NCBI RefSeq assembly: GCF_026151205.1
Contig: NC_087076.1
Location: forward strand, 9,276,902 to 9,340,901
DNA: 64,000 nucleotides
Direction of reading: 5' to 3'
From: Bolinopsis microptera
Lineage: Eukaryota > Ctenophora > Tentaculata > Lobata > Bolinopsidae
Part shown: in pieces, positions 1 to 24,680 of the stretch
Numbering within the stretch: the stretch's first letter is position 1
Layout: every line of letters begins with the position of its first letter
The notes under the pieces: generated by a model
The model's database searches: none
What the model was told of the DNA's origin: nothing
The model's input: only the letters and a program-made list of their open reading frames with translations
Program-made: the position numbers and the translations under genes

Positions 1-1364
1 GATGGAGTTTAAGAAGGCCTGGGTGGAGCAAGTGGTTATGTGTTACGTTTCGTTGGTTAAGGAGTTTAGAAGTTTGCAAGTCATTTCTATCTTTTTTGAA
101 ATAACTGCACGATAGAGTCAAATGTGTTACAGCTGTTGGTGGATTCTATCTATTCGTTTTCATATTTCAGACAGAGCTTCTCTAAGTTAGCATTCAACTA
201 TAGTCGTAGTGTATAGTCATTTTTGTCTGATGAATAGGTGTTGGCACAGAGTCAGGGGAAAGTTTCAATAGATGTGAATATAGGGGGATGGTTGGAGATT
301 TGTCTGATAGAGCTCTTGTTGTTTTTTATCTTTTGGTTAACTTTCTGTGATTGGACTCGGTATTTTCGTCCCAGCGAGTGGGACGTTGTTGCTCGCCAGT
401 AAAACAGCTATACTGCAAGTAGATGACACTAATTTTTCTACAACCACAAAATATTAAATTATAATTGTGTCTGTATGGCGCATAATGGACATAATTTGAT
501 ATTCTCGAGCCGTCGTGGCGGTGAGAGTTATTCTGAACCACTGCATGCCCCTACGATTGCTCACCTTGTGAGCTCAAGCATTTGTTTGTTGTTGTGTTGT
601 GTTGAAAGGGAAAAATTACTTGACTTTAATTCATCATCGCGATTTTAATCAGATGAGCTATGAATATAACGATTCACTTTAGTAATGGATCAATCTTATT
701 ATATGATTAGATCTTTATAAAACAAACGATCTTGGCATACAATAGATTATAATGCGGGGTTGGTGGATTTCTATAATAAATTCGACACTTCAATTTACAG
801 AATGCTTGATAGAGTAAGCAAAATTATTATCAGACTTTTCACTGCGCATGAGTAACTGGTGGATAAGCTTCGGTAAAAGCGGATCGGACAAAAAAGTCAA
901 TGCGGCACTGGGTTTGGTATGTCGGTCGTTTCTTATTGTCCATTATCTACGTTTACTGCTTGTGTAGTTATAAAACAATAGTGAGTTTCTAAATATACGC
1001 TTTAAACGATTTAGTATGAATTGAATGAATCTACTGTCAATCAGCACTCTTATAACCAAAAGCATGAGTAACTGTAGTGATGTATGATTTCTAGATACTT
1101 TAATAATTTTGGCGCTCACAGGGTTCCTCAAGACATGATTGCGGCTAAGGTTACTGCTAACTGCGCAGGGACCTTCAAGCTTAAATTTATTCAACTTATG
1201 AGGCAGTCTAACCAACGCGTGGCTTTATTTTTATTGATATTATAGTTTTGATTTTAGTAATAAATTCCAAAATTTAAATTTGTTTTAACAAAAAAAATTT
1301 GTTGTTCCAATTTTCGACAATATTTTAACGGGCGTACTTGTTAAAAGTTATTTGATTTAAATAT

Positions 1365-1410
1365 TACCGTGGACGAGTCCCAAATGGCGCGGTCGGTAGG
1401 TTATAAACCT
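1365..1410 (+). repeat. Hairpin motif copy 1 (hammerhead-like)
   Basis: One of five dispersed copies of a unit of about 50 bp. In this orientation it reads TACCG, a GACGAGTCC box, an AAAT loop, a GC-rich GCGCG-type block, and then GGTAGGTTATAAACC. TACCG can pair with CGGTA. It is the inverted partner of the copy at 16,627. Confidence 0.7.
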
Positions 1411-1872
1411 TACAACAAAAAATTGATCAACGAAAGTCAATCTTATAGTTGCAAAACAACAATATTGTCGATGTGCGACGCAATGCAAAATTTAAATATT
1501 TCGACAAAAGCTATATTCAGCAATTCATATTAATTGTGCTTTTTACGGGCGAAAAATAGTGAAAACTTGATAAACTAATAATATTTTTGAGCTTTTTTTT
1601 CTTCTTTCAAAAATCAAGAGTGATACTCGTAAAATAGTTGTTTCAGTTTTAAATACTTACAACACTACTATATAAACACAATAATTTCTAGGTCCCAATG
1701 TCAAAGCGATGAAGAGATATGACGTGCCGTTTGTATCCTAGCCAGGCATCTATTCCTGGGCTACAAGTATTGGACTTCGCCATTTTCACCTCCTCACGCC
1801 TTTTCTCCTCCATTTCATCACATCACTATGGATCTGAATTCTAGTTACAATGTTTTTAAAAATCGTTTTCAT

Positions 1873-2334
1873 TACAATGAGCTGAAAGCTCTCACGGCAG
1901 TGTTGAGAATGTCATGAAACTTAAGAGAAAATTCTGTTAAAATGCGAGGTCTTCTTGGAGTTGCAATCAGATTTTGTTTAGAACACAAGAGTGTTAACAT
2001 GGACGTGGATGGTCTGAACTTGAATCACTTAGGCCAGCAAAACTGCTGTTGAAAAATGCCTCTAAGTGGCTCACTTCGACTGGAGAAGAATATGTATGGT
2101 CTTCTTCAAATGGTCACACCAACGACTAGGGAGCCAATCGATCTGTTAAATTATCTTGGGATATCTGAGCTTATGCTTTATATACATCTCCAAGTTTTGG
2201 CTGCAAGCTAAATCAATGCCTAGGCAAGCATGTACACAGTTGGTTCTTGTGCAATCTAGGTACCACAACGACGACGTGGTGTTTTGACCGTCGAAAGGTA
2301 TTTTTCTATGTAGTTTCATTTGGAGCTGAGAGGA
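1873..2334 (+). pseudogene. Broken left-arm counterpart of the 153-codon right-arm ORF
   Basis: This segment is the inverted match of the ORF at 15,726-16,187 but is interrupted by stops and frame changes in this arm. The next bases downstream (about 2,330-2,700) also match the other arm, where short coding-like stretches continue in changing frames. I do not recognise the product. Confidence 0.4.
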
Positions 2335-3959
2335 CCATCGACATAATTCCAGAAGAAGGCGGATAGCGATGTAACAATAAATGCTATATCACCCCAAAAG
2401 GATGACAGTTTGTATATATGAAACCGGGGTGTCAGGAATTTGTCTTCACAAGGTTGTGCAGAGAGCCTCAGTTTAATGGGCTCGGCTAATTGCTGATACT
2501 TTTCGCGGCCAGATACAAGACAGATACAATAATGTATGTCAAGAGCCAGAGGCCCGCACTACAATTCACTTATGCCGCCCACACCACTCAAACACCACTC
2601 AACCTTTTACCTACCGAAATACTCCAAGATAACCGTAAGAGCAGGAAAACCACTGTTGTTTGGTACCGTCAATGACAAAATTAGTACTGGGACAATTAAG
2701 TTGGATTCCGGGGACGGAAAGTAAATCAATGTGTCTCAAGTGGTGCAAAAATTATGAGAATCACGTAACATTCATAATTTTCATAAAACTCATGCAGCTG
2801 CGGAAGCTGACGATATTGAAAAAATTTATTGAGTGTTGGTACTAATGACATTTACATTCTAAGTATGGGGTACAGATCCTTAGGATGTATCTCACTGAAT
2901 TAATTGACCCAATAAAGCAGTTATTTCCCGCTGCAAGTTTACTTTATCCAATGTTGTTTCCTATTAAATGTTTATATTTCTACAATAGCAAAGAAATGTC
3001 TAGTTTATTAATCTACTTAAAGACTTATGCCTAAATAATAATTGGTGTTCTTAGACTGTTTCCTGTCTTTTTAAAAAAACTCGAGACTTTAGATCATGTA
3101 ATGAACTTCTATACATGATTGGCGTTCATCCTCATATGAGAGGAGTAGGTTTATGTCCATTGGCTTAGTTTGTTTGTAATCGATCACAGTTTTGGACCAG
3201 GGTTGTAAATCAACTCTTCTGGGAATTTAAATACTTTGCTCTTTCTCTCCATATATATTTTGCTTAAGTCGTTGGCCTAATATTAAAACTCAAACAAATC
3301 TACTGATTTATCTTTTCATCCTTTTATGCTCAATTTCGGTACATTGGTCTCTGTCCTATTTTCCAATTTGTTAGACATTGAAATCGGTTAGACTTAGAAT
3401 AGGTCTTTTTGCATGCAAAAGGCTCGTACTCAGTCAAGAATGCACTTATTACATATCAACAGTTTTTACTAACTAAATTTACACATTTAAGCTATCTCAT
3501 ACACCACCCACACATCAACTAACAATTATATTAATATATGTGTCTCTTTATTCTCTATCATGACTTATCTCTTTTCTCCAATCTTCTTCCACGGTTAGGT
3601 CCATGAACACGCTATTACCCCCTAGATTCTAATATTCATTCCATCTATACTCCTTGGCAGCCCACGAGTATCTTTATTACCATTTCTTGCTTGCTCCCAT
3701 CATCAAAACTTTTCTTAGTAATTATCTCTCATCGGTTTATATGAAATCCGTTCTTCTCCCCTGGTGAGACTGAATAGTGTCAAAGTATTCCAGCCGTCTC
3801 AGGCGTCTAGTATCTTTATTCATTCTTTGGGTTTTCTCTCTTACTTTCTCTTTGATAATCTTGTTAATCCTTCGATGCTTAATCCAGGTCCCCAACTCTA
3901 TGTGTTACTCTACCCAAAATGTCATAGGTCTCATCTACTTTCAGTAACCTAAGCTCCTT

Positions 3960-6900
3960 CTCCATCCCCTCTTGATGGTAATAAGATTTCCGAACTTCAA
4001 TCTTTGCTAAACATAGAGCAGCTGACATAATTGCCCCGAAATGAGATTGGCTACTAATAAAATCTATTTCTAGCAACGAAATCTTTCCATCTTCTCAATT
4101 GAATCTTCACCGAAAAAAATGACAGAACGACGGAATGATTAACTCAAGATCCTAATATACTAAAAAGTTTAGGGGATAATGGAGGTGGTGTTCTTTGGGC
4201 TTGTTCGGTCTGATCTCGACGCCACTACACCCGCCTACAGTTTGCCTGGTGCAGTAAATGCTTGCCGTTAAAATTTCTTTTCCTTAACAAGAGAGATTGT
4301 AATCTGTATTGTTATAGAGTAGGAACTTCTTGGGTTACATATTCTGTTGCTAGTTAGTTATTTCGCAAGCTAGTTTCCAAAATGAATCCCCTAAAATCTC
4401 TGTTATGGTGATTTAATTCCCCATACAGACTGCTCTATCTTAATCACTGTTCAGTAACTATTGAGCAATCCTTCAAAGATTTTTCAGTGATATTTTCTCT
4501 TCTCCTCAGTTGATCAATCACAACCATAAAAGTGGTAATGACATTAGAAATTCTTCTCTGTAATTATGCTACCACAATCGATAACTTGAATGTTGTGATA
4601 CTATTGTGTGCAAATGATCTTTTCTGTTCACTTTTTCAATTAAAAAGCTCCTTTTCCCGTAGGAAAACTCTAAACGATGAATATCTATAATTTTAAGAAA
4701 GCAAACTGGACATGATTAATCGTGGAATTATGCTCGATTAATTGGCAAGTCTAGAATGCCTAGATCTGATTGTCTTGGAAGTTAGTTTAAAGACTGCATT
4801 ATGATTTCGTTGATATTTATATTCCTAAAGTATTATTATCAGGTTCCTACCGCGTGGTTCGATAGTGTACTTTTTTCTTCTGCCGTAAAAAGATAGACTC
4901 AGAGCTAAATTTAAGACTTCTGGTTTATATTCTGATGAGTAATGTTTGTTACTAGCCGTAAAGATTTAAGGGCTTCATCAGCAAAATAAGAGATAATCTT
5001 TTTAATAGTGATGATCCGGCTTTATAACTAAGAAGTTTGTCACATGTTTAAGTATCATCATAACTCTCGCGTGTATTCCTATGTGTTAGTTTTTGGCAGT
5101 TCGGTTCAATCCAAAGTCAAGCTGATTTTTCAATTCTTTTTTTATAACCAGTTTCGGATCTTCAACTTTATGACATGACATCTCCTATGTCAATGATGTT
5201 GATTTTGATTTGACTTCGATCAGCGGGATGTTCGTAAGCTTCTTACCTAAATATAATTTAAACTAAAGCCAGGACAGATGGCATATCGGTAAAATTCTAT
5301 AAAAAATTGTTACGTAGGTTTAGCTTACACGTATAACATGGATTTTCGTGGATCCTACAACAGCGGACTACATTTCCCACAAGAATGGAATCTTGCAAAT
5401 GTATGTCCCACATTTATGTAAGAACAGTAAGAAAAGTGAGGTTGTAAAACTTAGACCATTTCCCTTATTGTTTAGTCATGAAAGTTTTAGTTTTTGAGCG
5501 CATTGTTAAACTGTATAACTGCTTTCTTTGACAAGTACCGTCTGATCCAGGCAGCATGGTTTTCTAGAGCACAAGTCATGACACAACCATATGGTTGATT
5601 TTTGTGATAGCGGGCATTGTCTCTTATCGGAAAACATTATAAATCATGTAGTGTTATTTGATTTTGACTGAAAGGATTTGATTCTGTAAAATCATGATAT
5701 CTTCTTCATAAGCTAAAGACCTTATATAACATTGGATGGTACACTTAAAATTTCTTACAATTACCGTTCAAGGCCGTTACCAAAGTAGTGGTTAATTGGT
5801 AATAATGCAGATGTTCATCTACCTCTTCAGTTAATTCTGGTGTATCCCCAGGGGCTCTTCCTTGGTCCCTTACTTTTGTATTGTTTATCAATGATATTCT
5901 CTTGGCTTTCGGATTAATATCCTGATATTGTTTTGTAGGCCTGATGATACAAAATTCTGGCGTAAATACAGTCATCTTTGGATAATACTATTTAAAAGGA
6001 TATAGGTCTATCTCTGAGCTGGGGCACTTAGTAAACAATAAATGCGATTCCATACAGCATATGTAAAGTGCTTATTGTTTCAGGAAAACCATCTTTTATT
6101 CTCTCCATTCGCATATAATCTTTGATGCTATCCTGCTTGGGTATGTAGATTAGAAAAAGATTTGGGGTCGAGGTTACTCCTAGCTCAGTAGGAACATAGT
6201 CAGTGCGACAGAATTTATTACTAAGGCTGCAACAACCTTGGTCTATTGGCAGTAGAGAAGTCAATATTGTCATGTTCAGAACGTCGCCGGTCGCTTTACT
6301 TCTGGTTCGTAGCAATTCGAAAATTGTTCAACTAATTGGCGCCCTTGTAATACATCACTTTGTGATAAATTAGAAAGTCTCCAACAAGAGAGCTAATTAA
6401 AGGATTCTGTCTGAAGAGGGCCGCAGTTATCCACTGAGCAATATGTCAAAAAAAGTGCAAGCTTGTCGAACAATTCTCCCCGTTTGTCTCAATAGTTTTG
6501 ACTTGAATTGAGCTTTTTTTTTCTTCACAATGTTCTGAACAATGTATTTTCTGTATGCTGACTGCACTATCTCCATTTTATCAGTGCACTTCACGACTAA
6601 TGCGTTGCCACATCGACCGTCTGTCTATTGGGTCATCATTGTTACCTAAGTTAAGTCAGATTTCACCAACTATGTTACCTCAAATAGCCCACTCGGCAAA
6701 ATCATTTTTCTACAGGAATCATATACTGTGGAATGGACTCCTTTAAGGTAAGACAGCTTGTGTCTAAGTGTTTTCAAAGCTGAGGGCATAAGAATCTATG
6801 AAATGTTTATTGGATAGTGAAACAACAGCTAGCCAGTATCCTTTGCTCCCCACATATATTATTTTTTTTTACTTAATGTTTTTATTTACCTTCCTATACT

Positions 6901-7250
6901 TTCAACATCATATCACACTTCACGCACACTCACACAATTAATGACCATATCAGACTGTTTCTAATGTATCTTTGGAATTTGAGTATTGAATACCATTCTT
7001 GGATATTACTCACAGTTTTCACCATGGGATTTGTTTGTTATTAAAATTGTTTTTATAAATTTTTTGGATTAGATTAATTGATGTAATGGTGTCCAAGTTA
7101 CTGCGACATAGTTCACTATGTGTTTACTTGTTTGGAGTGCCCATATATTTTACAGATTTGGGCACATATTTTGAACGGTTCTATTTTATATTCATCTTTG
7201 CTGTACTCTGTAAAAATTTGAAATTGTATGTATATAAAAAAAAAATATTA
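3960..7250 (+). mobile_element. Decayed jockey/CR1-like LINE, left arm
   Basis: A non-LTR retrotransposon ORF2 can be followed through frameshifts. An AP-endonuclease-type region lies at about 4.0-4.7 kb. A linker reading KDRLRAKFKTSGLYSDE lies at about 4,888-4,940. The reverse transcriptase starts around FPQEWNLANV (5,374), passes a damaged version of the NSGVPQG...LGP motif at about 5,833, keeps INDI a little further on, and has a damaged YADDTK at about 5,925. A C-terminal block with FFYRNHILWNGL ends at 6,745. A 3' UTR leads to an A-rich end near 7,245. The RT motifs are those of CR1/jockey-type LINEs; the exact clade is my inference. No continuous ORF survives. The right arm carries the same element with different lesions. 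Confidence 0.75.
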
Positions 7251-7252
7251 CA

Positions 7253-7300
7253 GGACCGTCGAACGAGTCCACTCGGGGCGTCCTGATAGGTCTATAAACC
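7253..7300 (+). repeat. Hairpin motif copy 2 (hammerhead-like)
   Basis: Same orientation as copy 1 and about 5.9 kb downstream of it. It shows CCGTCGAACGAGTCC and ends in TAGGTCTATAAACC. It lies directly after the A-rich 3' tail of the LINE in this arm. Confidence 0.65.
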
Positions 7301-8855
7301 TTATCAATTACAAAGTATTCATGTAATTTATAAAAATGATAAATGCATGTATTGACTTTAAATTACAATCATGCAAAATATTGTCACTCCTATTCATGAA
7401 GTTTGAACAAGTAATTTACAAACATGAGCAATTCGAGGAGTGTTCTTGCATTCTCAGGGAAATATAAAAACCTGCGCTTTTTCATAAATAAGAATATAAT
7501 GTTTTTACTCAACTCAAAATTTAACGCGGAAGATGCATGCGACTGACGACGACAGACGTTCTCCAACTTTATTGGCAGTGTTATTAAAGATCAAGCGCGA
7601 GCACAGAAATGTGGTCTTCCTGATTTGGATAATTGGTACAAAAGTTTGCCTCTAGTGGTATATGCAAATTCCACGTGTTGTAGCAAAATAACGTCGAGGT
7701 GTACCGAGGATACAAGGATACAAAGGATACAAAAAAGTGATATATTATTTTATTGAATTCACAATAGTTATAATTCTGTATAATTTAAGTTTACCGCTTC
7801 TAATCATTTACAAATGTGTAGGGAATAAAATAGAATATGTTCTATTATATGCTATTTTCTTTAAGAATCAATATTTGTATGGTTCATGCATGACATCGTG
7901 TAATGTGGGCCTCCTGTGCATTGCAGAGTGTAAAAAAAAGGACGAAAAACTTGTAATTTATTGCTTTCTAAAAGCTTATAGCTCCTAAATATCGAATATT
8001 TTGACAGGACATATTGTGAGTGCAATAATTTTATGATTGAAATGTAAATTGAATTTTACCATTTCAATTCGTAACTTGAATCTTTTAATTCTGCATGGAC
8101 ATTTGATTCTGGAGATTTATCCAGAAATTCTTTAGCGACAATATGATCACTATAGTGAACGTGAACCAGTGCCTAACGGGCCGGGTCCGGGATATTCAAT
8201 ATCGCAGTTAAACTGCAGTATAATTAACTTCCAATTTTATTTGAAAACACGCTTTTACATTTTACGTTGTTAACCAGTGCGAAATGTTGACTCGCATCAT
8301 TCCAACAGGACCACTATTTAAATTATGAGTGAACTCAATATCTAATAGTATACTTGATAGGAATATTGATCTTGAGTTCCCTGCCAAATTAACTATTATC
8401 TAGAAATTCATTATGAGGGGAGTGATAGGGAGAGTGATAGAGAAACAACAACACACACTAGTATTTGGTTCACAAATGATCAATTTAATCACTTACCACC
8501 CGATCGATTTAAAAAACCTTCATAAATTTGGCTTGTCAGAGTTTTCTCGCGGCACTATACAGAATTTAAAACCTAGGACCCGTAACTCTTACGTTTCTTG
8601 TTTAATTAATTTCCCACACTTGGCACAGAAGAGAGACAGACACACATTCCTGGTGATTATTAGTATGATGTTGCTCTATAATGCATTCCTAAACAACACA
8701 GTGGTGCGAATTGTTGATTGGTTGGAGTGTTAAAAAATGTATTCTCATTTTCTTTTATGATGACATTCCTATACTCTATCGAACCTCTTGGTATAGAGAA
8801 AAGAATTTTTCTTTGTCTTATTTATTTGTGACTAAATGCCTTTTTTATTCGTATT

Positions 8856-9074
8856 GCTGTGTAAATTAAATTAGATTCTAATTAGAATGACATGTTACCA
8901 ATTCAGAAGTGTTTCATAAAACGTTTTGTCAGGAAACTGATGCTTCTTTAACCTCCTGCATCTCCTTAGAGCGTTACTCTATTCAGTAATAGTGTTTGTG
9001 TGTACACTTAAATTTGATGACACATTTTCACCCCTGTTGGTTTGTTTCTTCTGTACATATCCTGAAGCAAAGAA
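8856..9074. other. Spacer at the centre of the 18-kb inverted repeat
   Basis: About 220 bp that do not pair between the arms. The last paired block I can follow is the TCTCTATCGAACCTCTTGG region near 8,773-8,850, against its complement at 9,080-9,158. The spacer is ordinary AT-rich sequence with no ORF and no obvious adapter-like sequence. Confidence 0.6.
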
Positions 9075-10630
9075 AAGAACTGAAGCAAAAGCATTTGTTC
9101 AATAAATCAGTCAAAGAATAATATCTTTTTCTCTATTCCAAGAGGTTCGATAGTGTATATATTGTAATCATAATAGAAAAATGAGAATCACATTTTTTAA
9201 CTCTCCAACCAATCAACAATTCGCAACTTTTGGTTTAGGTATGCAATTACTATGCTACCTAAATAATAATAATCCCAGGATGTGTGTATGTCTCTCTGTT
9301 TGCTTCCTCATTTGGCTTGTGTCGGAGGAAATTAATTAATCACAGAAAAACAAGGTAAGAGTTACGGGGCTGGTTTTATCTGCTATAGTGCCGAGAAAAA
9401 CTTGACGAGCAAAATATGCGGTTTTTTTAAATCGATGGTGTGTAGTGGTTTAATTGATCATTTTGTGAAACAAATAACTAATGTGTGTCGTACTGTGTGT
9501 ACTCTATCACTATCCCTCTATCTCTCCCTCATATTGATTTGCTATATAATTAGTTATTCTGGCAGGAACTCTAAGTGTCAAAGATATGCATATCAAGTAT
9601 TACTCTTAGTTATGGGAGTGCAATCAAGAATTAATTTGTGGTCTGATTGGAATGAGGAGTTAGACATGCACTGTTTAACTTCGAACAAATGTAAAGGTGT
9701 TTTCAAATAAAATTGGCATGTTTATACTGCATTTTAACTGCGTATAGTGAAGTCCACGGGACCCGGCCAGTAGGCACGGGATAACGTCACGAGTAGTGAT
9801 ATATTGTTCTATGATTTCTGGATTAAATCTCTACAGAATCAAAGGTCATGCAGAATTAAAAAAGATCAAGGTTACCGAATTGAAGTGGTAATATTCAGTT
9901 AAATTACAAATCATAAAATTTTGCAATCACAATAGTTGTCCTGACAAAATTATTTGATTATTTTAGGAGCTATATGCATTTTAAGCAAGAAATTAATTGT
10001 TTTTTCGTCCTTTTTACACTCTTGCAATTGCACAGGAGGCCCACTACAGATGCATTGATGAACCATACAATTTGATTTACTTAAAGAAAAATAGCATTAT
10101 ATTATAATCATTTCTAATTTTATCCTACACATTTGTAATGTATTTCGAAGCGTAGTAACTTAACATTCTATCAGAATATAACTATTGTGAATTAATAAAT
10201 TATTATACACTTTTTGTATCCTTGTATCTTGTATCACTTGTACACTCGACGTTATTTGTACACGGTGAATTTGCCTTATTCTCACTTAGAGGCAACTTTT
10301 GGTACAATTTATCAAAAACAGAGACAAAATTTCTGTGATCGCGCTTGTATCTTATAACACTGAATTTATGTTGGAGGACGTCTGACGTCGTCACTTCGCA
10401 TGCATCGTCGCGGTTAAATTTTGATTTGAGTGTAAAAACATTAATTTATGGATGTTATGAAAAGCGCGTTTTATTTCCTGAGGAATGCATTACACTCCTT
10501 CAAATTGCAATGTTTTAATATTGGTTTTCAACTTCATGCATTGTGACAAATATTTTGCATTGGATTTGTATTAAAGTCACTATCATGCATTTATCATTTT
10601 TATAAATTACTTGGAATACTTTTGGGAATT

Positions 10631-10684
10631 GTAGGTTTATTCTAACTATCAGGACGCTGCGCCGAGTTGGACTCGTCGCGGTCT
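10631..10684 (-). repeat. Hairpin motif copy 3 (hammerhead-like)
   Basis: Inverted partner of copy 2. On the - strand it reads CCGCGACGAGTCC, then a CGGCGC block and the GGTTTA-type end. The A/T-rich LINE tail lies next to it here as well. Confidence 0.65.
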
Positions 10685-10689
10685 GTTAA

Positions 10690-11540
10690 TATTTTTTTTT
10701 TTTTATTAATCCTATTCAAAATTTTACAGGGAGTACAGCAAAAGATGTAATATAAATAGAATCGTTCAAAAATATTGCCCCCATCTGTTAAAATATGATG
10801 GGCAAACAAAACAGGTAAACAATAGTGAACTTATGTCCGCAGTAACTTGGACCCATTACATCGAATTAATTAAATCCAAAAAATTTGTACAAAAACCTAA
10901 TAATAACAAAAAATCCATGGTGAATAACTGTGGATTTATAGTCAAAATTGGTATTTCAATACGTCAATTCCAGATACATTAGATACAGGTTGATTATGGT
11001 ATTAATGTGTGAGGTTGTGAGGGTGAAGTGTGTTTGATGTTGATAGTATAGGAAGGTAGATAAAAAACTTAATAAAACAACTAATAATATATGGGGAGCA
11101 AGGACTAGGCTAGGGTGTGTTTCACTATCCATAAACATTCCATACGATGCTTAGTGACTCAAGCTTTGAAAACACTGTAGAAACTAATTGTCTTACTGTA
11201 AAGGGAGTCATTCCACAGTATATGAGTTCAGTAGAAAGATGATTTGCATTGGCTATTTGAGGTACCTAGGTGTGAGATTTGATTTAACTAGGTAAAAATG
11301 ATGACCAATAGACAGATGTCGAGGTGGCAAGTTAGTCGAGAAGTGCCTGATATAATGCTGAGATAGTGAGCAGCATACGGAATTAAATTGTTCCGACTTT
11401 GTGGAAAACATAAGTATTCAAGTCAAACTTTTGAGCACACCAAAACACCAACCACACACACACAACACAACACAACACCCTACACCACAAACCCACACAC
11501 AAACTCACCACCCCCCCCCCCCCCCACCACAAACAACCAC

Positions 11541-11583
<43 letters not shown>

Positions 11584-14080
11584 ACACACACAGGAGAATG
11601 TCGACAAGACTTGCACTTTTTGAATATGCTCAGGTGGATAACTGCGGCCCTCTTCAGACAGAATCCCATTAATAGCTCTCTTTTGGAGACTTTCTATTTA
11701 TCACTAAGTGTTTTTTACAAGGGCGCCAGATTTGGACAATTTTCGAATGGTCTACGACCTGGAGAGGTAAAAGCGCCCGACGACGTTTCTGTATCAATGA
11801 CTATATGGCACATCTCTTTGACCATACCTAGTTGTTGGCAGGCCTTAGTATAAATTTGTCGCATGACTATTCAAACTGAGTTAGAGTTAATATCGACACC
11901 AGGTTATTTTCTACTCTACATACAAGAGGAGATCCATCAAGATTATATGCGAATGAGGAGATAAGATGGTTTTTCCTGAAACAATAAGCACGTTTACATT
12001 TTGCTGATGGAATAGCTTTTTGTTTCTAAGTGCCCAGTCAGAGAGATAGTCTATAATCCATTTGAAATTGGTATTATCAGAAGTTGAATGTATTTACGCA
12101 GATTTGGTTCATCGGCATAACAAAACAATATCAGTATATCCGAAAAGCCAAGAAGGAATATCTTTGCTAAACAATATACAAAATGTAGGGACCAAGGATA
12201 GAGCCTGGGGGACACCAGAATTAACCTGAGAGGGTAGATGGACATCCTATACCAATAACCACTCTTGGTAACGGCCTTGAAGGTTATTGGTAAGAAATTT
12301 GAGTAAGTGTACCATCAATGTATTTAAAGTTCTTTAGCTTATGAGAAGGATATCATGATTTACTGAATCAAATGCCCTTTGCAAATCAAAATACAAACAT
12401 GATGATAATGTTTGCGTTAAGAGACATATGCCCAGGGGCTATCACAAAAAATAATCCATATTGGTTGAGCATGATTGTGCTATTAGAAAACCTGTGCCTG
12501 GGATCACGAAGGGTACTTGTCAAGAAAGCAGTTTCCGTTTTACAATGCGGCTAAATCACTTTCATGACTAAACAAGTAAGGGATATTGTCTATGTTTTCA
12601 AACTCACTTTTTTTACCTTTCATTAAAATATTGGGTCAACATTTGCATGTTTCCATTCTTGTGGATGTTGAGCTGTGTAGGATCCACGAAAATGCATGTT
12701 AGTGGGTACAGCTAAACTAGGAAAACAATTTGAGAATTTTTACCGGTTGCATCTGTCCCTGGCTTTATTTGAATTAATATTTGAAGAAGCTTACGAACAT
12801 CCGATGATCGTAGTCATAATCAAAATCAACATCATTGAATTGGGATGTCAGTGTCATAAAGTGAAGGATCGAAAAAACTGTTATAAAAACAATGAATTGA
12901 ATAGTTCAGCTTGATCTTTGGGGAATTGAAACGAAGCTGTCAGAATAACTACACAATTTGGGAATCGGCCAGGAGTTAGATTTTACTTAACATTTGATAC
13001 CTCAAAACTTCTTAGTTATTAAGCGCTGGATCTTACCACATATTTAAAAGATTATCTTTATTTTGGCTGTTTGGAGCCTACTTAAATTCTTTACGGCTAG
13101 TAAACAAACTTTAACTCATAGAAATAGAACAGTAATTTTATATGCTCTGAGTCTATGTTTTTACGGATGAAGAAACAAGTTCACTATGAACCACGGGGGT
13201 TGCGAACTATGATTGATTAATTAACTTTAGGATATGTATATCAGACTATAAATTACATAATGCAGTCTTTAACTAACTTCCAAGACGATTCAGGTGCTAG
13301 GCATTCTAGGACTTGCATTAATCGAGCATAAATCTCGATTAATCATGTCCCAAGTTTGGCTTTTCTTATAATTATAAGATTTTACGTTTTAGGAGTTGTC
13401 TACGGGAAAAGGAGTTTTAATGAAAAGTGACAGGAAAATGATCAGATTGCACACGGATTTGAGTATCACAGACATTTCAAGTTCATCGATTGTGTTATCA
13501 TTAATTACTGAGAAGGATTGTCTATTGTTTATACCACTTTTAGGGGTGGGTGATGTGATCAACTGGGAGAGAGAAAGATCACTGAGAATCTATGAAGGTT
13601 TGCTAAATAGGTTACCGGTACTGGATGAAGATAGCCAGTCTGTATGGGGAGAGTAAAATCAACAATAATCATTGATTATAGGGGATTCTTTTTGGAAACT
13701 CTCAGCTTGCGAATATAAATAACTATGACTTATGATTAGGTAACCCAGAGTTCCTATCTTAACCAAGTACAGATAACAATACTCTCTTTGTTAGGAAAAG
13801 AACTTTTAACGGCAAGCATTTCTGCACCGAGGGCTAAACGCTGGTAGTCGGGTTGTTGTGCGTCGAGATTCAGACGAACAGCCAAAAGAAACCACCTCCT
13901 ATTTCCCTAACTTTTGAGGGTTATTGGATCTTGAGGGTTGAGTCTTTCTCGTGCGGTCATATGAGAGTAGATTTCATATGGAGAAGTAAGAAAGATTTAC
14001 GTGCTAGACACATAAGATTTTTGAGACCAGTCTCTTTTAGGGCAATTATGTCAGGGCTGCCTCTATGTTAGCAATGGATT
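10690..14080 (-). mobile_element. Decayed jockey/CR1-like LINE, right arm
   Basis: Inverted counterpart of the LINE at 3,960-7,250. On the - strand the endonuclease-side segment (about 14.0-13.4 kb) keeps phrases such as STGNLF and SQLITSPT. The RT motif region (about 12,230-12,050) shows NSGVPQ, damaged thereafter, and a YADEP-like version of the YADD box. A low-complexity insertion interrupts the C-terminal part at 11,440-11,592. Where one arm loses frame the other often keeps it, so the lesions are private to each arm. Confidence 0.72.
11440..11592. repeat. CA/C-rich low-complexity insertion, right arm only
   Basis: CACA-type repeats followed by long cytosine runs. The flanks match the left arm directly around 6,450-6,500, so this block is an insertion specific to the right arm or a sequencing artefact. 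Confidence 0.8.
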
Positions 14081-15725
14081 GAAGTTCGGAAATTATTACC
14101 ATCCAAGAAGGTATGGGAGGAGCGTAGTTAATTGAAAGGAATGAGAGCCTTGACATTTTGGTAGAGGTACACTAGGGAGTTGGGAACTGGATTAGCATAG
14201 AAGGATTAACAAGAGTTATCAAAGAAAGTTAGAGTGGAAAACCCAAAGAATGAATAAAGAGACTTGACGCCTGAGGCGGCTGGAATACTGACTCTATTCT
14301 TTTACCAGGAGAAGAACATTTCTTATAAACCATGAGGAGTTAATTTTCAATGAAAACGTTTGATGTGGGAGCAAGCAAGACAATGGGTATAGATAACGTG
14401 GGCTGTATAAGGAGTAGAGAGGAATGAATTTTAGAATTAGGGGAATCGGTGTTCATGGACCTAAAGTGGAGAGAAGAATTGGGAGAAGTAAGTCATGATG
14501 AGAGAAGAGTAAAAATAAAAAAGAGAAACATATGTTATGATAATTGTAGTGGATTGTGGGTGTATGAGACTTATATGTGTAAATTTTTGTTAGGTATAAA
14601 CGTGTTGATAAGTATAAGTTGCATTTCTTGACTGTGTCCGAGGTCCTTTTGAATGCAAAAAGACTATTCTAAGTCTAACGATTCATTGTCTAAACATTAT
14701 GAAATGGACAGTGACGTATGCTACCAGAATGGGAGGATAAATTGAGAAAAGATTAAATCAGAGATTTGTTTGAGTTTTAATTTTAGGCGCAACGTCTTAA
14801 ACAAAAAATTAAATGGAGAAAAGGATCAAATGTTTTAAATGCCAGAAGATTATTTACAACCTGTCAAAAACGTGTTCGTTTACAACAAACTAAGCTCAAG
14901 TGGACAGTTAAACCTACTCCTCTCATATTGAGATGAGCCAAGCATGGTTATAGAAGTTCATACATGATCTAAAGTCTCGAGTAAATAAGACTGTGGAAAC
15001 AGTCTAAGATCACGCAATTATTATTTCAGGCATAAGTCTTTTAAGTAGATTTTTAAATCTAGAAACATTTCTTGCTTATGTAGGAATATAAACATTTAAT
15101 CGGAAGACAACACTTGGATAAATATTATAATGCCTGCGGGAAATAACTGCTTAGAGGTGTCAATTATTCTGTGAGATTCTTCATAAGGACTGAACCCCAT
15201 ACATTAGATGTTTAATGTCATTTGTACCAAACACTCAATATATTTTTCAATATCGTCAGCTTCTGCAGCTGCATGAGTTTTATGAAAATTATGCTGTTTT
15301 CAGTGATGTCTCTAATTTTGACCATTGAGACACATCACTGATACTTTCTCTCCCGGAATCCCAACTTGTTTGTACCGTACGAATTTTGTCATTGACGTAA
15401 AATCAGGACAGTGGTTTTCTGCTCTTCGGTTTTCTTGGAGTATTTTCGTGTAAAGGGTGGTGTTGAGGTGGTGGTGGGGGCATAGGAATTGTAGTGGGGC
15501 ATTCTGCTCCTTGACTACATTTGTATTGTCTTCGGTATATGCAGCGAAAAGATAAGCTATACCGAAGTACACTTATACTGCGCTCTATGCACGAACCTTG
15601 TGAAGACTATATTCCTGACACCCGGTTTCCATATTATACATACTAACCAGTCCTTTGGGGTGATATAGCATTTACCTGTTACATCGGCTATCCATTTTCT
15701 GGAATTATGTCGATGTCCTCTCAGC

Positions 15726-16187
15726 TCAAAATGAAACTACATAAATACTTGCCGTTGTGGTCAAGTGACACCTCGTCGTCGTTCGTGGTATTTCTAGTTG
15801 CATCAAGAACCGACTTGTTCTTGCTTGTAGGAATGCGTTTGCTTGCAGCCAAACTTGGAGTTGATTATCTTGCATTAGCTCTGATATTCCAGGATAATTT
15901 AAAATATCGATGGCTCCTAGTGTGTGTGTACCATTTGAGGAAGAACCATACATATTCTGTCTCAGTCGAAGTGGGGCCTCTTTGTGGCAGTTTTCACAGA
16001 CAGTTTCGCTTGGCCATAAGTGTTTCAAGTTCAGAACATCAACGTGCCATGTTGACACTCTTGTTCTGAACAAAAATTGATGCATACTCCAAGAGTCCTG
16101 CATTAAGAATTTCTCTAATTTCAAGACATTCATCAACACTGGCTTGAGAGCTGTCAGCTCATTTAATGAAATCGAGTTTAAAAACAT
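15726..16187 (-). CDS. Unrecognised 153-codon ORF in the right arm
   Basis: Longest clean ORF in the palindrome. The predicted protein has a CENCH motif near residue 65 and no evident signal peptide or membrane segment. It has the same sense as the LINE in this arm but lies about 1.6 kb upstream of it and about 0.45 kb downstream of hairpin copy 4, so it may belong to a separate transposon. The matching stretch in the left arm is broken. Downstream on the - strand (to about 15.3 kb) short coding-like segments continue in other frames, which suggests a longer original protein. I do not recognise the family. It may be transposon-encoded or fortuitous. Confidence 0.3.
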   Translation of the reverse strand: MFLNSISLNELTALKPVLMNVLKLEKFLMQDSWSMHQFLFRTRVSTWHVDVLNLKHLWPSETVCENCHKEAPLRLRQNMYGSSSNGTHTLGAIDILNYPGISELMQDNQLQVWLQANAFLQARTSRFLMQLEIPRTTTRCHLTTTASIYVVSF

Positions 16188-16626
16188 TGGTAACAGAATT
16201 CACAGATCCATAGTGATGTGAGGAAGAGGGAGGAGAAATGGCGGTGAGGGAGGGAGAAATGGCGAAGTCATTATCTGGAAGCCAGGAAGTAGATGCGTTG
16301 CTTAGGATTAATACGGTCACGTCTGTCATCTTCTATCGCTTTGACATTGGGACCTAATATTTTTTTTGTTATATGTAGTGTTGTAAGTATTTAAAAAACT
16401 GAAACAACTATTTTTCGAGTATATCACTCGTGATTTTGAAAGCTAGAAAAAAAAGCATAATAAATATATTGTTTACAGTTTCACTTTTTTCTCCGTAAAA
16501 AGCACAATTTATTGTGATTGCGTGAATATCGCTTTTGCGAATATTTATATATATGCATTGCTTCGCATCGCCTAGATTGTTGTTTTGCAACTATTATGAG
16601 TTGGACTTCGTTGATCACTTTTTTGT

Positions 16627-16678
16627 GTAGGTTTATAACCTACCAAGGACGCGCGCCGATTTGGACTCGTCCTCGGTA
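16627..16678 (-). repeat. Hairpin motif copy 4 (hammerhead-like)
   Basis: Best-preserved copy. On the - strand TACCGAGGACG pairs with CGTCCTTGGTA as an 11-bp stem (including G-U pairs), followed by a second hairpin, GTAGGTT/AACCTAC. Inverted partner of copy 1. Confidence 0.75.
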
Positions 16679-18399
16679 TTATTTAAATCAAATATTTTAC
16701 AAGTATCGCCAGTTAAAATTTTTGTCGAAATTTGAGAAAACAAATTTTTTTGGAAAACAAAATTTTTATAATTTTGGTATTTTATTAATAACATTCAAAA
16801 CATTCAATAATAAAAATAAGCCCACGCGTTGGTTGACTGCTCATAAGGTTGATAATTAAGCTTGAAGGGCCCTGGCATTTACGAACCTTATGCCGGCAAT
16901 CATTTCATGAGGACCTGTGAGCGCCAAAATTAATTTAACAGTTTCTAGAAATCATACTTCACTACGAGTGACTCTTGCTTTTGCGCTTATAAGAGTGTGA
17001 TTTGTCAGGTATTTCATTTCATTTCATCACTTAATCGGTTTTAAAGCTGTCATATTTTAGATACTCACTATTGGTTTAAAATACGAAGCAGTAACGTTAG
17101 TTAATGGACATTATTCCGACAGACTATACCAAGGACCGAGTCCGCATTGACTTTTACGGATCGTTTTTACGAGGCTATCCACCAGTCTACTCATGCTGCA
17201 TGTATAGTTGATAAATCATTTTGTCTTATCTCTAGCAGCATTCCTTGTAAATTGAAGTGTCGTATTTATTATAGAAGAGCCAGCCAACCTCCGCATTATA
17301 ATCTATTGTATGCCAAGTTCGTTTATAAAATCTAATCATATAATAAAAGATTGAATCCATTAGTCTAAGATGAAACGGTATATATAGCTCGTCGTTATTA
17401 AAATTCGAATGATGAATTAATCAGTACTGTTCCCTTTCACACAATAAACAACAAACCAAAATGCTTGTCACCAGTGGTGACGCAATCGTAGGGGCTTGCT
17501 GTTGGTTCAGATAACTCTCACCACGACGGACCGGCGTCGATATATTATCAATTATCGCTTTGCGCTACTGGACACTTTTTATATTTAATATTTTGTGGTT
17601 GGTAGAAAATTAGTGTCATCTACTGCGTATAGCTTAACTGGCGAGCAAGCATCGTCCCACTCGGCTGGGACGAAAATACCGAGTCCAATCACAGAAAGTT
17701 AACCAAAAGATAAAAACCCACAAGAGCTCTATTGAACCAGATCTCCACCATCACCCTATATACTCTTATTGTACTGTCCCCTGACTCTGTGCCAAACCTG
17801 AATTCATCAGTACAAAATTACTATACACTAGATATAGTAATGCTAACTTCAGAGAAGCTCTGTTTTGACATAGAAAACGATTAAGATAGGTTCCACTCCA
17901 CAGCTGAACACATTTGATCTTTACGTGAGTTATTTCAAGAAAGATAGATTTGTCTTGCAAACTGCTCACTCTTGAACCACTAACGTAATAGCATAACCAA
18001 CCTTGGATCACCCTAGGGCATATTAACTCATCGACAAGAAAGCCTGGTTGTATTTCGAATGGAAGAAGACCTTGTACATTAAACTACCTGATGGCGGATC
18101 CAACAGCACATATATACTAGGAATTCGACAGTTTTCAAGAGCTCAATAAAGATGGCATAGGATCTGTGCTTTACTCAAAATTGAGATCAGTACAAGCATG
18201 AACTCAAAAAAGACCTGGAAATTATAATGGAACTCCGTGCAAAATTATTCTGATGTAAAGACGTTTTTCGTCATAGTGGCTCCAGAGAGTTACTTGCAGA
18301 CGAATTATTGTAACAAATTCTGTGAATTTAAATCTAGCTTGAGTAATCTCCAATTAAAAATGTACTGTCAAAACACTAGTTTTTCTCTGGAACCAGTTG

Positions 18400-20270
18400 A
18401 ATTCATTGTCAGTTTATGTCTATATTACGGTATAGATCCATATACCTGGAAGAAAACTAATGAAGAGAAAATTTTAAGAGGTGTTCCGAGATTTTCAAAT
18501 GGGTAAGGCCATTGACAACCTGTAGTTGTTGTATAAAACGGCAAAATCATTGCAGGTACTTTTGCTAGGCTTTCAACACATTGTATTACAAAGTGGTTCA
18601 TTCCCAAGTATTTTTATAAAACAGGTAAAGTTATTTCATTTACAAGAAAGACAATAAAGAATGCTGAAAATTATCGGCTGTATCAATTTACCTTTATTTG
18701 GATCAGATATTCGAGAGGTTATTTAACAACGCCTTATTCACATTTTTTTTCTTCACATCTACAAGGTTGTACTACAGGACTACAAGTTTGATTGGAATAG
18801 GCCATTATATCCACCCATGCTCTGACAAATCTATAGACCTCCGTACTAGTCTCTGCAAAGCAAATAAAACATGTACTAGGGATATGCATGACTTGGAGCA
18901 AAGCCTTCGGATACCCTTGATCAACGATATTCTTTTATGCAATTAAATTCATCACCGGTATTAGGGGCACAGCACTTACCTGACTAAATAGCTATTTGAC
19001 TAACAGAAAGCAGTATGTACTGTATACGCATGTACCATCAGAAACAATGGACGTGAATTTTGGGAGTACCTCAAGGGTCAATTCTAGGGCCGTTACTCTT
19101 CCTATTGTATTTGAACGATATAGTAAAAATGTTTCAGACAGTGAGATGAACTTTGTTACTTTATGCTGTATGACACTAATATCTTATATCAGGACCCATA
19201 TAGAGAAGCAACTCTCATAAAAGCCTACTTAGTACTTAAACATGTCTCACGATTTACATGAATGTAATTACTTCATATCAAAGGTCCAATGTGCATACTA
19301 CATTTACCTGCCTCTGAATATTGATGAACCTGTGCACGGACAGACCATTTGCTATCCGGCTAGTGATTCTTGATCAATATTCATCATTGGTAGGTTTTAC
19401 TAAAGTCAAGGATTACCAAAGATATAAAAATTCTTAGGTGTGTGATAGCTAGTAAGTAATAATTGGGTATTGCCAATGCACTACATCCGTAAAAACACTG
19501 CGTTCTTTTTTATTTTTGACTGGTGCCAATATGCAGACCTGCGGCACTACGATACCTCTGAACTATTTTTTGAAAATATATAAATGCTCTTTTTGAATAC
19601 ATTCAGGTACCGGTTTACGGGTGTGGGGCTGTTGTCCTCAAAAAGAAAAAATCACCCCCCCCCCCCCCAAAATATAAACCCCGTCAATGATAGTCTTTTA
19701 TCACACAGAAGCATGTATAGGATCTTTTGGCGACTGGACTATATTTAGATAACAATCCACATGTGCAATACTTAGACCATACGGTATGCAAAACTGGGAC
19801 CAATAAACACTTTGAAAAGGAAAACATACAAAAACCCATTTTTAATTAGATTAAAATAATACGGATAAAACTTGTACAAATATTCCTGCATCTTAGATTT
19901 TCAAGATTATCAAGTACCATGCCCTACTCCTTATGAGACTATCACATTTCAAACCGTGAACGTGTCTCGGTTATTCTCCCTAAATAAATCAAATACCTTT
20001 TTGTTATGCAGCCAGCTTTGACGCTGTTCTAAAAAATTTTTTACTTCAGCATTGATTTAGAAACGTCCATTAGCTTGATAAAAACTGAGGAAAAAAGCAC
20101 TATTATAACAAGCAAGGCAAGCAGACTTAACAGATCTTGGATCCAACAATTTTAAATTGCAGTTATCAAGTCTAATTGCATCGGCGCAACTTACTATTAC
20201 TATCATGATTGTTCTATAGACAGAATAATCTTTAAATCGATTTTGGGGCTTTTTAACCATCTGTTGGGTG
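18400..20270 (+). mobile_element. Third LINE reverse transcriptase relic
   Basis: Lies just outside the right arm. The RT fingers region can be read at about 18,535-18,690, ending in KNAENYR. The catalytic-domain motif [20 protein letters not shown] is intact from 19,063, followed by a damaged YADDT at about 19,161. Thumb and C-terminal remnants run to about 20.27 kb. Stops and frameshifts occur throughout. The motif set is that of CR1/jockey-like LINEs, and the sequence differs from the copies in the palindrome. Confidence 0.7.
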
Positions 20271-20792
20271 AGGTAATCCTTGTCAGGTTTTACTGTTCTT
20301 CAGGGCTCTTGTCTGTCCGCATTGCACTATGTGGCGAGGAAGCATTAGTGTCTATAAAAGAATCTAGTGCTGCGAGTGGACTCGCCAATGCATGGTGGTA
20401 TGAATCAACAGTTTAACTCAAGAGGCTATAGCAAAAGCCATGTGGGCCTTGTATAGCCAGCTCTCGGGTCTACTTTGAGCCGACAGCTGCTAGTGGCGCC
20501 CTTATGTAACCAGGACTTACGGCATCGAATCGACTAACGCCCAGATATATGCAAAGATTGGCGCGCAGTCATAAACAGCGGGTGCGCGCACAGAATGGCT
20601 TCCCGTAGTACCAATAACACTCACCTGGTCTCTCCCACTTGACACTACTCACGCGCGGAGCGGTATTTCGATCATGACAAGCCTAACGGATATAAACCAT
20701 TGATAATATTAGACGTTCTGCTTGCAGTTCTACTTAATTAGCCCGCTGGGTTTTTGCAGCCCCCCTGTTTGCAAATTTGCCGCCCCCCTCGG

Positions 20793-21322
20793 AGAGTGTA
20801 ATGGGAGTATCGCTACAATGTGGGAGTGTATGGGTGTATCGCTACATCTGGGAGTGTAATGGAGTATCGTACTATGTGGGAGTGTAATGGGGAGTATCGA
20901 TAACAACTATGGGAGTGTAATGGGAGTAATCGCTTCATTGTGGGAGTGTAATGGGAGTATCGCTACAATATGGGTGTAATAGGGAGTCATCGCTACTATT
21001 ATGGGATTGTAATGGAGTATCAGCTTACCAAGTGGGAGTGTAATGGAGTATCGCTACAATGTGGGAGTTTTAACGGGAGTCGCTACAATATGGGGTGAAT
21101 GGGAGTATCGCTACATGTGGGTGTGTAATGGGAGTATCGCTACAATATGGGAGTGTAATGGGAGTATCGCTACATTGGTGCGGAGTGATTTGGAGTATGC
21201 TACAATGTTGGAGTGTTTGGGAGTATCGCTACATTGTGGGAGTGTAATGGGGAGTATCGTTACAATGTGGGAGTGCAATGGGAGTATCGCTAATTGTGGG
21301 AGTTTTATGGGAGTAATGTATA
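20793..21322 (+). repeat. 30-bp minisatellite, about 18 irregular units
   Basis: Unit close to GGGAGTGTAATGGGAGTATC followed by GCTACAATGT, repeated with many one-base indels. Unit edges drift, so the copy number is approximate. No coding potential. Confidence 0.9.
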
Positions 21323-21843
21323 GTAGTTACCATCACAGTTACACTCCAACCGGTGTGTAATGTGTGATAATGGCAGAATTGGCCCTGGATCAGAACAGTA
21401 TTTCCTGTGTCGTAAATATGGATCCCATGTCCGTTATTTCTGGACTGAGTGAGAGTCCACCTCACGTGAGCGTCACAAACCTCACGTTTTAGCTCAGGCA
21501 CCAAAAGGAGATATGTATCAATTACAGTTCCCCACACAACACCTATCTACGTTAGCACACCGCAACCGCCTTTCAGCAAACCTCGTTCACCGGTCTAAAG
21601 AGCCAGCATTATAAGCACACGGGGTCATCCTTTCATGGTGTTTGAGCGCAGGGTAACACCAGAACTTCCCTAGGACCAAGTTAGTAAAATCTCTAGGAGT
21701 GCAACCCCCGATTGGCTGATACCTGGCAGGTATTATCATCCAGTGGCCCTCAGGGAAGGGGCTTAATGCGATGTAGGTTCCAGTAGGAAGCTCCCCAAGT
21801 GGTGGTCGCAACCTCTATATGACGGTGTTCAGTGGGTGTCGCG

Positions 21844-21898
<55 letters not shown>
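21323..21898 (+). other. GC-richer segment ending in a 53-nt poly(A) run
   Basis: About 500 bp of less AT-rich sequence without a convincing ORF, followed by an uninterrupted A run at 21,846-21,898. The layout resembles a retroposed sequence with its tail on the + strand, but I do not recognise the body and found no target duplication. A contig-joining or homopolymer artefact is possible. Confidence 0.45.
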
Positions 21899-21900
<2 letters not shown>

Positions 21901-22279
21901 ATCTGTTGTATGTTTTTAGTTACTAAATATCTTAAATTATAAAATTTTTTATCGAAGAATTAAATTGATGATATTTAATAATTTAGTCGGTAGGTTTATC
22001 TGGTATTGATATTGAGTTTATTGGATATTGTTATTATTGAAAGAATGCTAAACTCTAGACATAGTTAATACTACTTCTTTTTAAGAAAGGGACTTGGAGG
22101 TATAAACGACCAAGTTTGCATAAATTTCTATCCAACCAAGAACTCAGGCGCAAAAGGTGGGTGCGTAACTTTTGGTCTTGACACTCTCCGATCCTGTATC
22201 ACACCTGGATTCTTCCTCGTACGTATCTTTGTAAAAGTATATCCTTTAGTCAAATCTCTTGCTACTCCATGTCCCCTAA

Positions 22280-23035
22280 TATACTGATCTAATAAGTTCG
22301 TCGCTAGTAATATTTATATAGAAAATATTCTTTTGTCTGCTTTAATTGATACTAAAGAACATTGTTGTTTTTCATTGAAATTTGTTGTTGTATCTTCTTA
22401 TTTGGACACTCCATTTTAGCTATCGTCATAAATAAACCTAAAAACTGGTCTCTATAACTTGCTGTATTACGTATTATTCAGAGTTAGAATATATTCTGAT
22501 CGTTAAACTGCCTCTTTATCAGTAGCGGTACGTGACAGTTTGAAGTGATGTAGCAGCATTTCTTTATATTTTATATGTATTAGATTGCTATTATCTATGT
22601 ACTGGTGTAAAACGGAGAATTTCGTTTGCTCTTTCTATACAGTTTTTTTTACATCATTACTACGAATATGTTTGTGTCATCTGCAATTTAGTTATGAACT
22701 TGCCCAGATCAGATGTTCTAAATAAGTCCGTTACAAATATTATAAATAGCAAGGGTCCGAGAAAAGAAAGCCTTGGGGAACTCCAAAGAGAACAGCAGCT
22801 TGTCGATCTTCGCCATTACAGAGCATAGTGATATCTATTAGAGAGCTAACTACGATGAGTTATTGGGTTTCACGTATTCCATGTTGTCTAGTTTTATTAA
22901 GTGTTTTTCATGTGAGATCGTGTCAAACGCTTTAGATAGATCCAATCAAATTCCATTGTACATGCAGTTTTTTGCTATGACAGGACTTCTATGTAATTCA
23001 CTGAGGAGTTGAGGGGCATGGCTTCAACTGAGTGC
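22280..23035 (-). mobile_element. Fourth LINE reverse transcriptase relic
   Basis: On the - strand DLSKAFDTISHEKHL is readable at about 22,900-22,945. A damaged GVPQG...GPL motif lies at about 22,785-22,751, and an ADDTN-type catalytic box at about 22,686-22,674. The 5' part of the element is missing; the homology stops about 30 bp before hairpin copy 5. The relic is broken by stops and frameshifts. Confidence 0.65.
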
Positions 23036-23067
23036 AAAATATAATTACTCGACTTATCTTTGATCTT

Positions 23068-23121
23068 GTAGGTTTATTACCTACCAGGGACGCGCGCCCT
23101 GAATTGGACGCGTCAGCGGTA
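23068..23121 (-). repeat. Hairpin motif copy 5 (hammerhead-like), outside the palindrome
   Basis: Independent copy that shows the motif is a dispersed repeat. On the - strand it reads CCGCTGACGCGTCC, then a GGGCGCGCGTCC block and GGTAGGTAATAAACC. On the + strand side, an ATATTTTACGAGT...ACCGTTAA block follows at about 23,138, as it also does after copy 4, so the repeated unit is nearer 100 bp. Confidence 0.7.
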
Positions 23122-24471
23122 AAATGGAAAATGGAACAAATATTTTACGAGTTATCCACCGTTAAGGAATTTAATTATCCGACTAGACTAGAATTAGGGG
23201 CGGCGTCAACGTCCGAACAGAGATGTTTTTTTCCAAATATGTCTATCCAGCATGAATTTGTGAATTTCCTGGAATTGCTCATGCTGACGTCAAGCTCCGT
23301 GTCCTCCGAAGGATGTCATTTGTGGTTTATATCCTAACAGGTACGAGCGCGTTTTGGAACCTCATTGGAACAAATATTGTAGGCGCGCTGCACTATGGGT
23401 CGTGGCGCATCAAGATAAGGCTTATCGCAAAAAACCCCACAGATCTTAAGCAGATCGCGAAATGCGTAGGATTGACATCGTCACTCAAGAAAAAATATTT
23501 CTGATATATGTATTCGTATCCAAATATCAAAGATATTTTCCGCCTTCCGGCGGCGCGCGCTCACGCGCACAAAGTGGCATGCAACGTAGGTCAACAACAT
23601 ATTTCTACGAGTATCACCGTTAAATGTCAATATATGTCTAAGGGAGGATGCAGTGTTCGTATCCCTTCGACGATGTCCTTGAAGGGGTTCCGAAAGAAGT
23701 TGATGACTCAGAAGTTTCACATAGCCTGTGCCACGCGTACTGCGTGACGCGCTTGTTTCACAAGTAGGAATAGGCAATACAGATCAGCACACATAAGGAT
23801 GGTACGTGTGCGCGCGCGCAGTTGCTGACAATAGGTCGTAGTTAACCCGGGTTTTACAGTACTCGTGTGCGATGTTGGTTTCTATTGAGGGTTTATGTAT
23901 ATTCCAAGAAGTTTTTTAGACGTGGAAATCTGAAAGACTGAGAATTGTAGGTACAATAAGAAATTTGAAAATTTTTAAAATCCAACGATTGGATACAATT
24001 AGATTTACCAACGGGATTACATAATAATATAAGTATTCTTCTGTATATTTTAATAGCAACATAAAAAGCCGTGGTCCACACAAAGGGAAGCTTATAGTAT
24101 TCTTTTTAGTCAGTTTTTATCGCATATAAAATTTCTTTCACGACGAGTATACAGCCATTAAATATAGCTCGCAATGAACACAACGTATAATTAACACAAG
24201 TATAATTACCCAAAACCGATAATAATGTCGTTTTAACAACTTTCACGTGGACGGTCGTAAATGTACAAAGATTATTCTAGAATTATAGTAGAGTTAGTTT
24301 TTACAATTTGAAATTGCATGTAATAATTTTCAAATCGATTTGTCATGATGCTAAAACAATTCGTTACATAACAATAATTTGTACTAAATAATAAAGACAA
24401 TTTCTTTAGAAATGATTACGGAGATTACAAATGAAGTATAAATGTTTAACGAGATTACTATCAACACTCGT
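23122..24471. other. Repeat-derived intergenic stretch, no gene seen
   Basis: Contains a second ATATTTCTACGAGTATCACC block at about 23,599 (the downstream part of the hairpin repeat unit) and CpG-rich patches (about 23,550 and 23,810). Short ORFs here have no recognisable similarity. Confidence 0.5.
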
Positions 24472-24680
24472 GATCAGCAAGAAACGGATTCATTTGCTAA
24501 CATTAAATATTAATCAATCCGGTGACCGGAAAACAATCCTCCGGCCGCAACAATCACTTACGCGATCAGTAAGAAATAGGTTAGATCTATCAGTCAAAGT
24601 GACTTTCGTGATCAGTAAGAAACAGGTTAGATCTAGCAGTCCACAACATTGACTTCGTAATCAGTAAGAAACGGGTTCAT
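24472..24680 (+). repeat. Tandem GATCAGTAAGAAA repeat upstream of CEBPZ
   Basis: Four copies of a GATCAGYAAGAAAYRGGTT-type word start at 24,472, 24,564, 24,610 and 24,659 (the last begins AATCAG). The last three are spaced 46 and 49 bp apart, i.e. a short minisatellite about 0.4-0.5 kb before the CEBPZ start codon. A regulatory role is possible but not shown. Confidence 0.7.

Follow-up and report, generated by a model that had tools for sequence, protein, structure and literature searches.

A giant inverted repeat in the Bolinopsis microptera assembly is an assembly artefact, most probably an uncorrected long read that circled one 24.6-kb stretch

The inverted repeat at the start of C5:9276902–9340901, a stretch of 64000 nucleotides analysed here as the window and belonging to a 264.65-Mb assembly of 232 contigs, is an assembly artefact rather than a genuine part of the genome. 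At a probability of about 0.97, it derives from one error-prone read of at least ~146 kb, which circled a 24.6-kb stretch present in clean form at C5:4152761–4177426 and was pasted uncorrected at seven or more places, presumably as a gap fill or bridge. Among the readings offered by the original prediction, namely an old segmental inverted duplication, a mobile palindromic element and a noisy long read that had turned back on itself, the last is borne out by the error spectrum and by the clean source locus.

BLASTN self-comparison of the window recovered the repeat in two pieces, 9–6479 against 18026–11593 (79.1% identity, 4263 bits) and 6488–8843 against 11435–9087 (78.4%, 1496 bits), with a best score of 31.9 bits when the left arm (arm A) was compared with 20 base shuffles of the right arm (arm B). 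The predicted ~18-kb inverted repeat with two ~9-kb arms is thus present in the letters at 78–79% identity by BLASTN, the estimate that roughly one base in five differs holds, and the one insertion noticed between the arms corresponds to 11436–11592 in the right arm. The predicted extent of 1–18,032 does contain the repeat but ends too early on both sides, as the left arm runs on beyond the window to about −15830 (window coordinates), and the right arm runs to 25032 in the window and to at least 29999 in another copy with identical letters; in the copy on C13, the extended arms paired −7349..6479 with 25301..11593 and −9999..−7586 with 27950..25503. The counts of differences between the arms vary with alignment scoring: BLAST gave 718 mismatches and 497 gap openings in the longer piece, and a global alignment with cheaper gaps over both pieces gave 569 mismatches and 1026 gap openings, with 808 one-base gaps (392 in one aligned row and 416 in the other). 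The features of the window that bear on the repeat are as follows.

1–25032, + strand: right-hand 25.0 kb of a ~65.0-kb raw-read paste, delimited by exact identity with three other places, the left edge being placed by BLAST
1–8843, + strand: left arm, a single pass along the source top strand from C5:4168364 to 4177180, 87.2% identical to the clean source (L007) over 1–7492, with its turn mapped
1633–7241, + strand: noisy copy of a non-LTR retrotransposon, aligning to positions 251–5856 of a clean copy (L008), with shattered frames
8844–9086: unpaired centre, the source segment ~C5:4177180–4177426 in single copy; the read turns at 8843 without adapter-like sequence
9087–25032, − strand: right arm, the following pass along the source bottom strand, ending at the paste edge
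11436–11592: C-rich burst in the right arm, containing a 42-C run and missing from the left arm and the clean source; probably a base-calling burst
25033–64000, + strand: right flank, clean where checked, starting in a CBF/Mak21-family gene region with a second copy left of the paste

Searching the rest of the assembly for single copies, as the original prediction had proposed, led to a clean version of the arm on the same contig, at C5:4152761–4177426. With window positions 1–6000 as the query, 33 matches were listed in a search that scores best candidates only. Six of these were exact (five over 1–6000 and one over 282–6000), and one, at C5:4168364 (L007), was 87% identical over 1–5997 and was the only non-exact match among the 33 that covered 1–1632; the other 26 were shorter (85–88%), with 19 of them beginning at 1633–1694. 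The source was compared over C5:4151500–4153700, 4166864–4175836 and 4175700–4179200. Both arms trace to this one locus, since the segments at the turns map to C5:4176942–4177426 and C5:4152761–4153100, and the locus lies inside a 23.6-Mb contig. One turn segment (the R-turn, below) also matched C20:15063–15541 at 86%, which is perhaps a second allele.

The two arms are two noisy passes of the clean locus. Each differs from the source by 11–13%, mainly through one-base insertions and deletions: arm A is 87.2% identical to L007 (insertions 4.7%, deletions 4.4%, mismatches 3.3%; 6429 source bases) and arm B 88.9% (3.8%, 4.1% and 3.1%; 6420 source bases), with one-base gaps making up 85–94% of the listed gaps. 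The product of the two accuracies comes close to the 79% identity between the arms, so that the arms behave as two noisy readings of one locus rather than as diverged loci. Over the 6420 source bases common to both, mismatches or deletions were located at 492 positions in arm A and 461 in arm B, and only 25 positions were common to both against 35.3 expected; the errors of the arms are independent of each other.

The strongest point for sequencing noise is the substitution table, in which one instrument reading in one direction is seen on both strands. The twelve substitution classes of arms A and B correlated at r = 0.98 when written in the window + direction and at 0.045 when written in the biological strand, and the commonest error of both arms in the window + direction was A read as T (77 of 212 substitutions in arm A and 91 of 200 in arm B). 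Evolution would track the biological strand or neither, whereas an instrument tracks the direction of reading, which argues that the noise is that of sequencing. The per-arm identity and indel comparison called for by the original prediction yielded an indel-rich noise with independent errors and a bias that follows reading direction. Transitions accounted for just 25 of 212 substitutions in arm A and 23 of 200 in arm B, a low share that, given the habits we assume for the two platforms, speaks in our view for PacBio CLR rather than nanopore; the platform was presumably PacBio CLR. Comparing read-direction with biological-strand spectra against a clean copy thus needs nothing beyond the assembly itself to tell a fold-back read apart from an inverted duplication that has diverged.

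The same noise is evident in the retrotransposon carried by the arms. L007 and L008, the latter a shorter match on C9, are 99.80% identical over 5608 columns, and, judged from these two compared copies (99.8%), the element is a young one. In the clean copy L008, the 460-aa ORF1 carries a GDSL-type esterase domain, ahead of which a stretch resembling 2OG-Fe(II) oxygenases scored below threshold (17.6 bits versus a cut-off of 23); ORF2 encodes an endonuclease and a reverse transcriptase domain. ORF2 of L007 aligned without gaps over 1171 aa at 99.8%, and all of its 1154 six-residue words stayed in a single frame; the window arms retained only 156 and 146 such words, with 31 frame switches per arm. 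A tblastn match of 1098 columns in arm A was considered as a long open frame and set aside, as its identity was 36% and the word count indicated shattered frames.

Mapping of the turns revealed a read that goes round one unit. At the R-turn, the read follows the source top strand to C5:4177180 and continues on the bottom strand from 4177426, both at read base 8843; at the L-turn, the second turn at about −15830, it follows the bottom strand to C5:4152830 and continues on the top strand from 4152761. Thereby, 246 and 69 source bases are left as unpaired loops, respectively. A reading as a simple two-arm read was dropped once further turns appeared: the read turns every 24.6 kb, with at least six turns over ~146 kb. 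The R-turn probe was exact at no fewer than five places and noisier (77–80%) at five or more others, three of the noisier ones lying 49.3 kb away from an exact match within their own paste (C12, C10 at 7.6 Mb and C13). The L-turn probe was exact at a minimum of six places and noisier (76–78%) at five or more others, four of which lie 49.2–49.4 kb from another L-turn in the same paste. Each of the ten noisier turn matches is an unbroken same-strand alignment across the turn, including the loop, which is the pattern expected when a closed molecule is lapped several times, and the turn points recur on the probed passes. Provided that the pastes all derive from a single read, as we infer, this read holds three R-turns and three L-turns and is at least 146 kb long (C13:15435046 to C10:7568391).

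A template folding back at both ends through the 246- and 69-base loops would give such a read, in the order top strand, turn, bottom strand, turn, and so on repeatedly. This template may have been a hairpin-closed (dumbbell) molecule arising from amplification or library preparation. A missed SMRTbell adapter was considered as the cause of the turns and rejected, since a scan of −20000..26000 of the window copy and of the 40-kb C13 copy with the 45-base adapter sequence found none at the turns: its best local score was 31 of 90, in segments starting at 9100 and 9200, off any turn. Between the mapped strands lie no bases at the R-turn and ~8 at the L-turn. With no adapter-like sequence seen at either turn, the structure does not fit a simple missed adapter, and a hairpin-closed molecule made at the bench is the better guess. 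A search for natural hairpins or terminal repeats at the ends of the source gave just weak, short self-complementary stretches, the longest of 68 bases at 79%. By eye, short shared words stand at the turns, CTTTT at R and GTTGC at L, and would fit snap-back priming.

The rival that survives best takes the palindrome as a real molecule, for example a 24.6-kb hairpin-closed extrachromosomal DNA, of which the contig placement alone is wrong. Turns at the same two points on the probed passes, unpaired loops of 246 and 69 source bases and the lack of a visible adapter speak for it; against it, a single read accounts for every copy, the clean source is embedded in a 23.6-Mb contig, and, according to passages of PMC6218980 on such reads, whole-genome amplification is known to produce fold-back molecules, a structure that missed adapters also yield. 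We therefore hold it to be very improbable, and slightly less probable still is a template that existed in cells as covalently hairpin-closed linear DNA, derived from C5:4152761–4177426, instead of a bench-made one.

Exact copies of parts of the read were found in at least seven places, namely at C13:15.36, C12:1.41, C10:7.64, C10:14.33, C5:9.28 (the window), C5:5.27 and C8:15.97 Mb. An eighth paste may lie at C11:15.03–15.05 Mb, where just other passes matched, with scores equal to those at C10 7.57–7.59 Mb. As the searches score best candidates only, these counts are lower bounds. The copies in the window, C13, C12 and C10 (7.6 Mb) are letter-identical, errors included, from −9999, the limit compared, to 25032 (35 kb); at 25032 the window departs, and the other three stay mutually identical for all 4968 further bases compared. 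Half-kilobase samples taken around four pastes matched the 24.8-kb unit in 24 of 40 cases and did not in 16. One of the 24, at C5:9205000 (82% to the unit), was discounted because it proved to be a clean copy of a repeat lying beyond the paste, identical to C5:9352934 and 88–93% identical to most other listed copies. The limits of the pastes are given below.

~C5:9236903–9301933: whole window paste, 65.0 kb, from about window −39998
C12:1347542 to ~1450000: C12 paste
C13:15435046: one end of the C13 paste
C10:14328464: copy beginning at window position 282

Copies in seven places, with an eighth inferred, and a young non-LTR retrotransposon inside might suggest a giant palindromic mobile element that spread recently. 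The compared palindrome copies are, however, identical down to their errors; the 11–13% of indel-rich noise would all have to precede the spread, with none after it; the copies begin and end at different internal points of the read (25032 in the window, 282 at C10:14328464, 1347542 on C12 and 15435046 on C13) and hence have no common element ends; the four followed copies hold 2, 4, 4 and 5 turns, with noise that differs on each pass; and the frames of the retrotransposon are destroyed. This explanation has next to no probability. An old segmental inverted duplication with arms diverged through mutation, suggested by long collinear inverted arms differing by ~21%, is as good as dismissed, because each arm departs from the same clean sequence through errors of its own, with more indels than substitutions, the substitution bias tracks reading direction and not the biological strand, and the same palindrome with the same errors occurs in other chromosome-sized contigs.

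Returning to the pasted read, we compared the flanks of the window copy. Region 25028–28637 was 99% identical to C5:9107581–9111199, and a reading frame within it matched the CBF/Mak21 domain; its reading as a transposon was dropped on this domain scan. Besides itself, 29000–32000 had one match, C5:9113125–9116096 (96%), the last 2.4 kb of the left flank had one long match, C5:9381128–9383567, to the right of the paste (88%), and C5:9205000–9205500 was identical to C5:9352934–9353434. These four matches (88–100%) indicate that the flanks on either side are homologous to one another and lie in tandem (C5:9107581–9236903 and C5:9301929–9383567). We tentatively take the flanks for two unmerged alleles set in succession with the read between them, with a real tandem duplication as the alternative; the 88% match of the left flank is low for alleles.

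A gap filler or contig bridger would have inserted the uncorrected read at seven or more places. As in a raw-read gap fill, sequence of raw-read accuracy stands beside clean flanks, the right flank being 96–99% identical to other copies and the left only 88%. Against this explanation, a filler would be expected to require anchoring sequence at both ends, and the window copy does not overlap its flanks: at E 1e-3, neither the 2400 bases left of the paste nor the 2468 bases right of it matched the 50 kb of read compared (−20000..30000). For the C10:14.33-Mb copy, the left flank resembled the read only in a 20–22-base simple-sequence run, and 25033–64000 shared merely a few stretches of 23–40 bases with the unit, near 39664 and 40347.

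Palindromic reads are attributed, in the passages of PMC6218980 that treat them, to whole-genome amplification and missed SMRTbell adapters, and palindromic (inverted chimeric) long reads are also treated in PMC13265396. The present case resembles the reads described in those passages in that the second part of one noisy read is the reverse complement of the first, with independent errors; it differs from them in having at least six turns, at two fixed points on the probed passes and with no adapter seen, and in that its letters persist in a finished assembly. As to the insertion, LR_gapcloser can, by its description, work with reads that have not been corrected (PMC6324547), and in the benchmark rows of PMC8848313 its fills averaged ~87.7% identity to the truth in three species and 88.0% in human with simulated reads, and 88.3–90.4% in three rows with real reads. 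The inserted sequence here is likewise ~88% identical to the truth; unlike those fills, one read appears at seven or more places. TGS-GapCloser corrects its candidates, according to the relevant passage of PMC7476103, and scored 91–97% in the same benchmark rows (PMC8848313), so that in default use it fits less well.

By the sum of their limits, the four followed pastes amount to ~0.39–0.44 Mb of false sequence. For users of the assembly, they introduce spurious palindromes and repeats, and in the window region the paste parts what seem to be two copies of one region.

Several further features were observed within the window, in which an Rfam scan at gathering thresholds and a tRNA scan gave no matches. 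A 2.9-kb palindromic element at 46124–49050, with inverted arms of ~1.4 kb that are 91.7% alike and 154 bases apart, has copies on C9, C7 and C2 at 92–99% and resembles a DNA transposon whose inverted ends are very long. At 40347–43947 lies a 3.6-kb dispersed repeat with at least ~30 copies or fragments at 93–99% and with TTGGGTTTTT runs close to each end. A TCC-rich tandem array of 1.7 kb with strong strand skew occupies 61815–63513, and 57964–58271 is an exact tandem duplication with a 156-base period.
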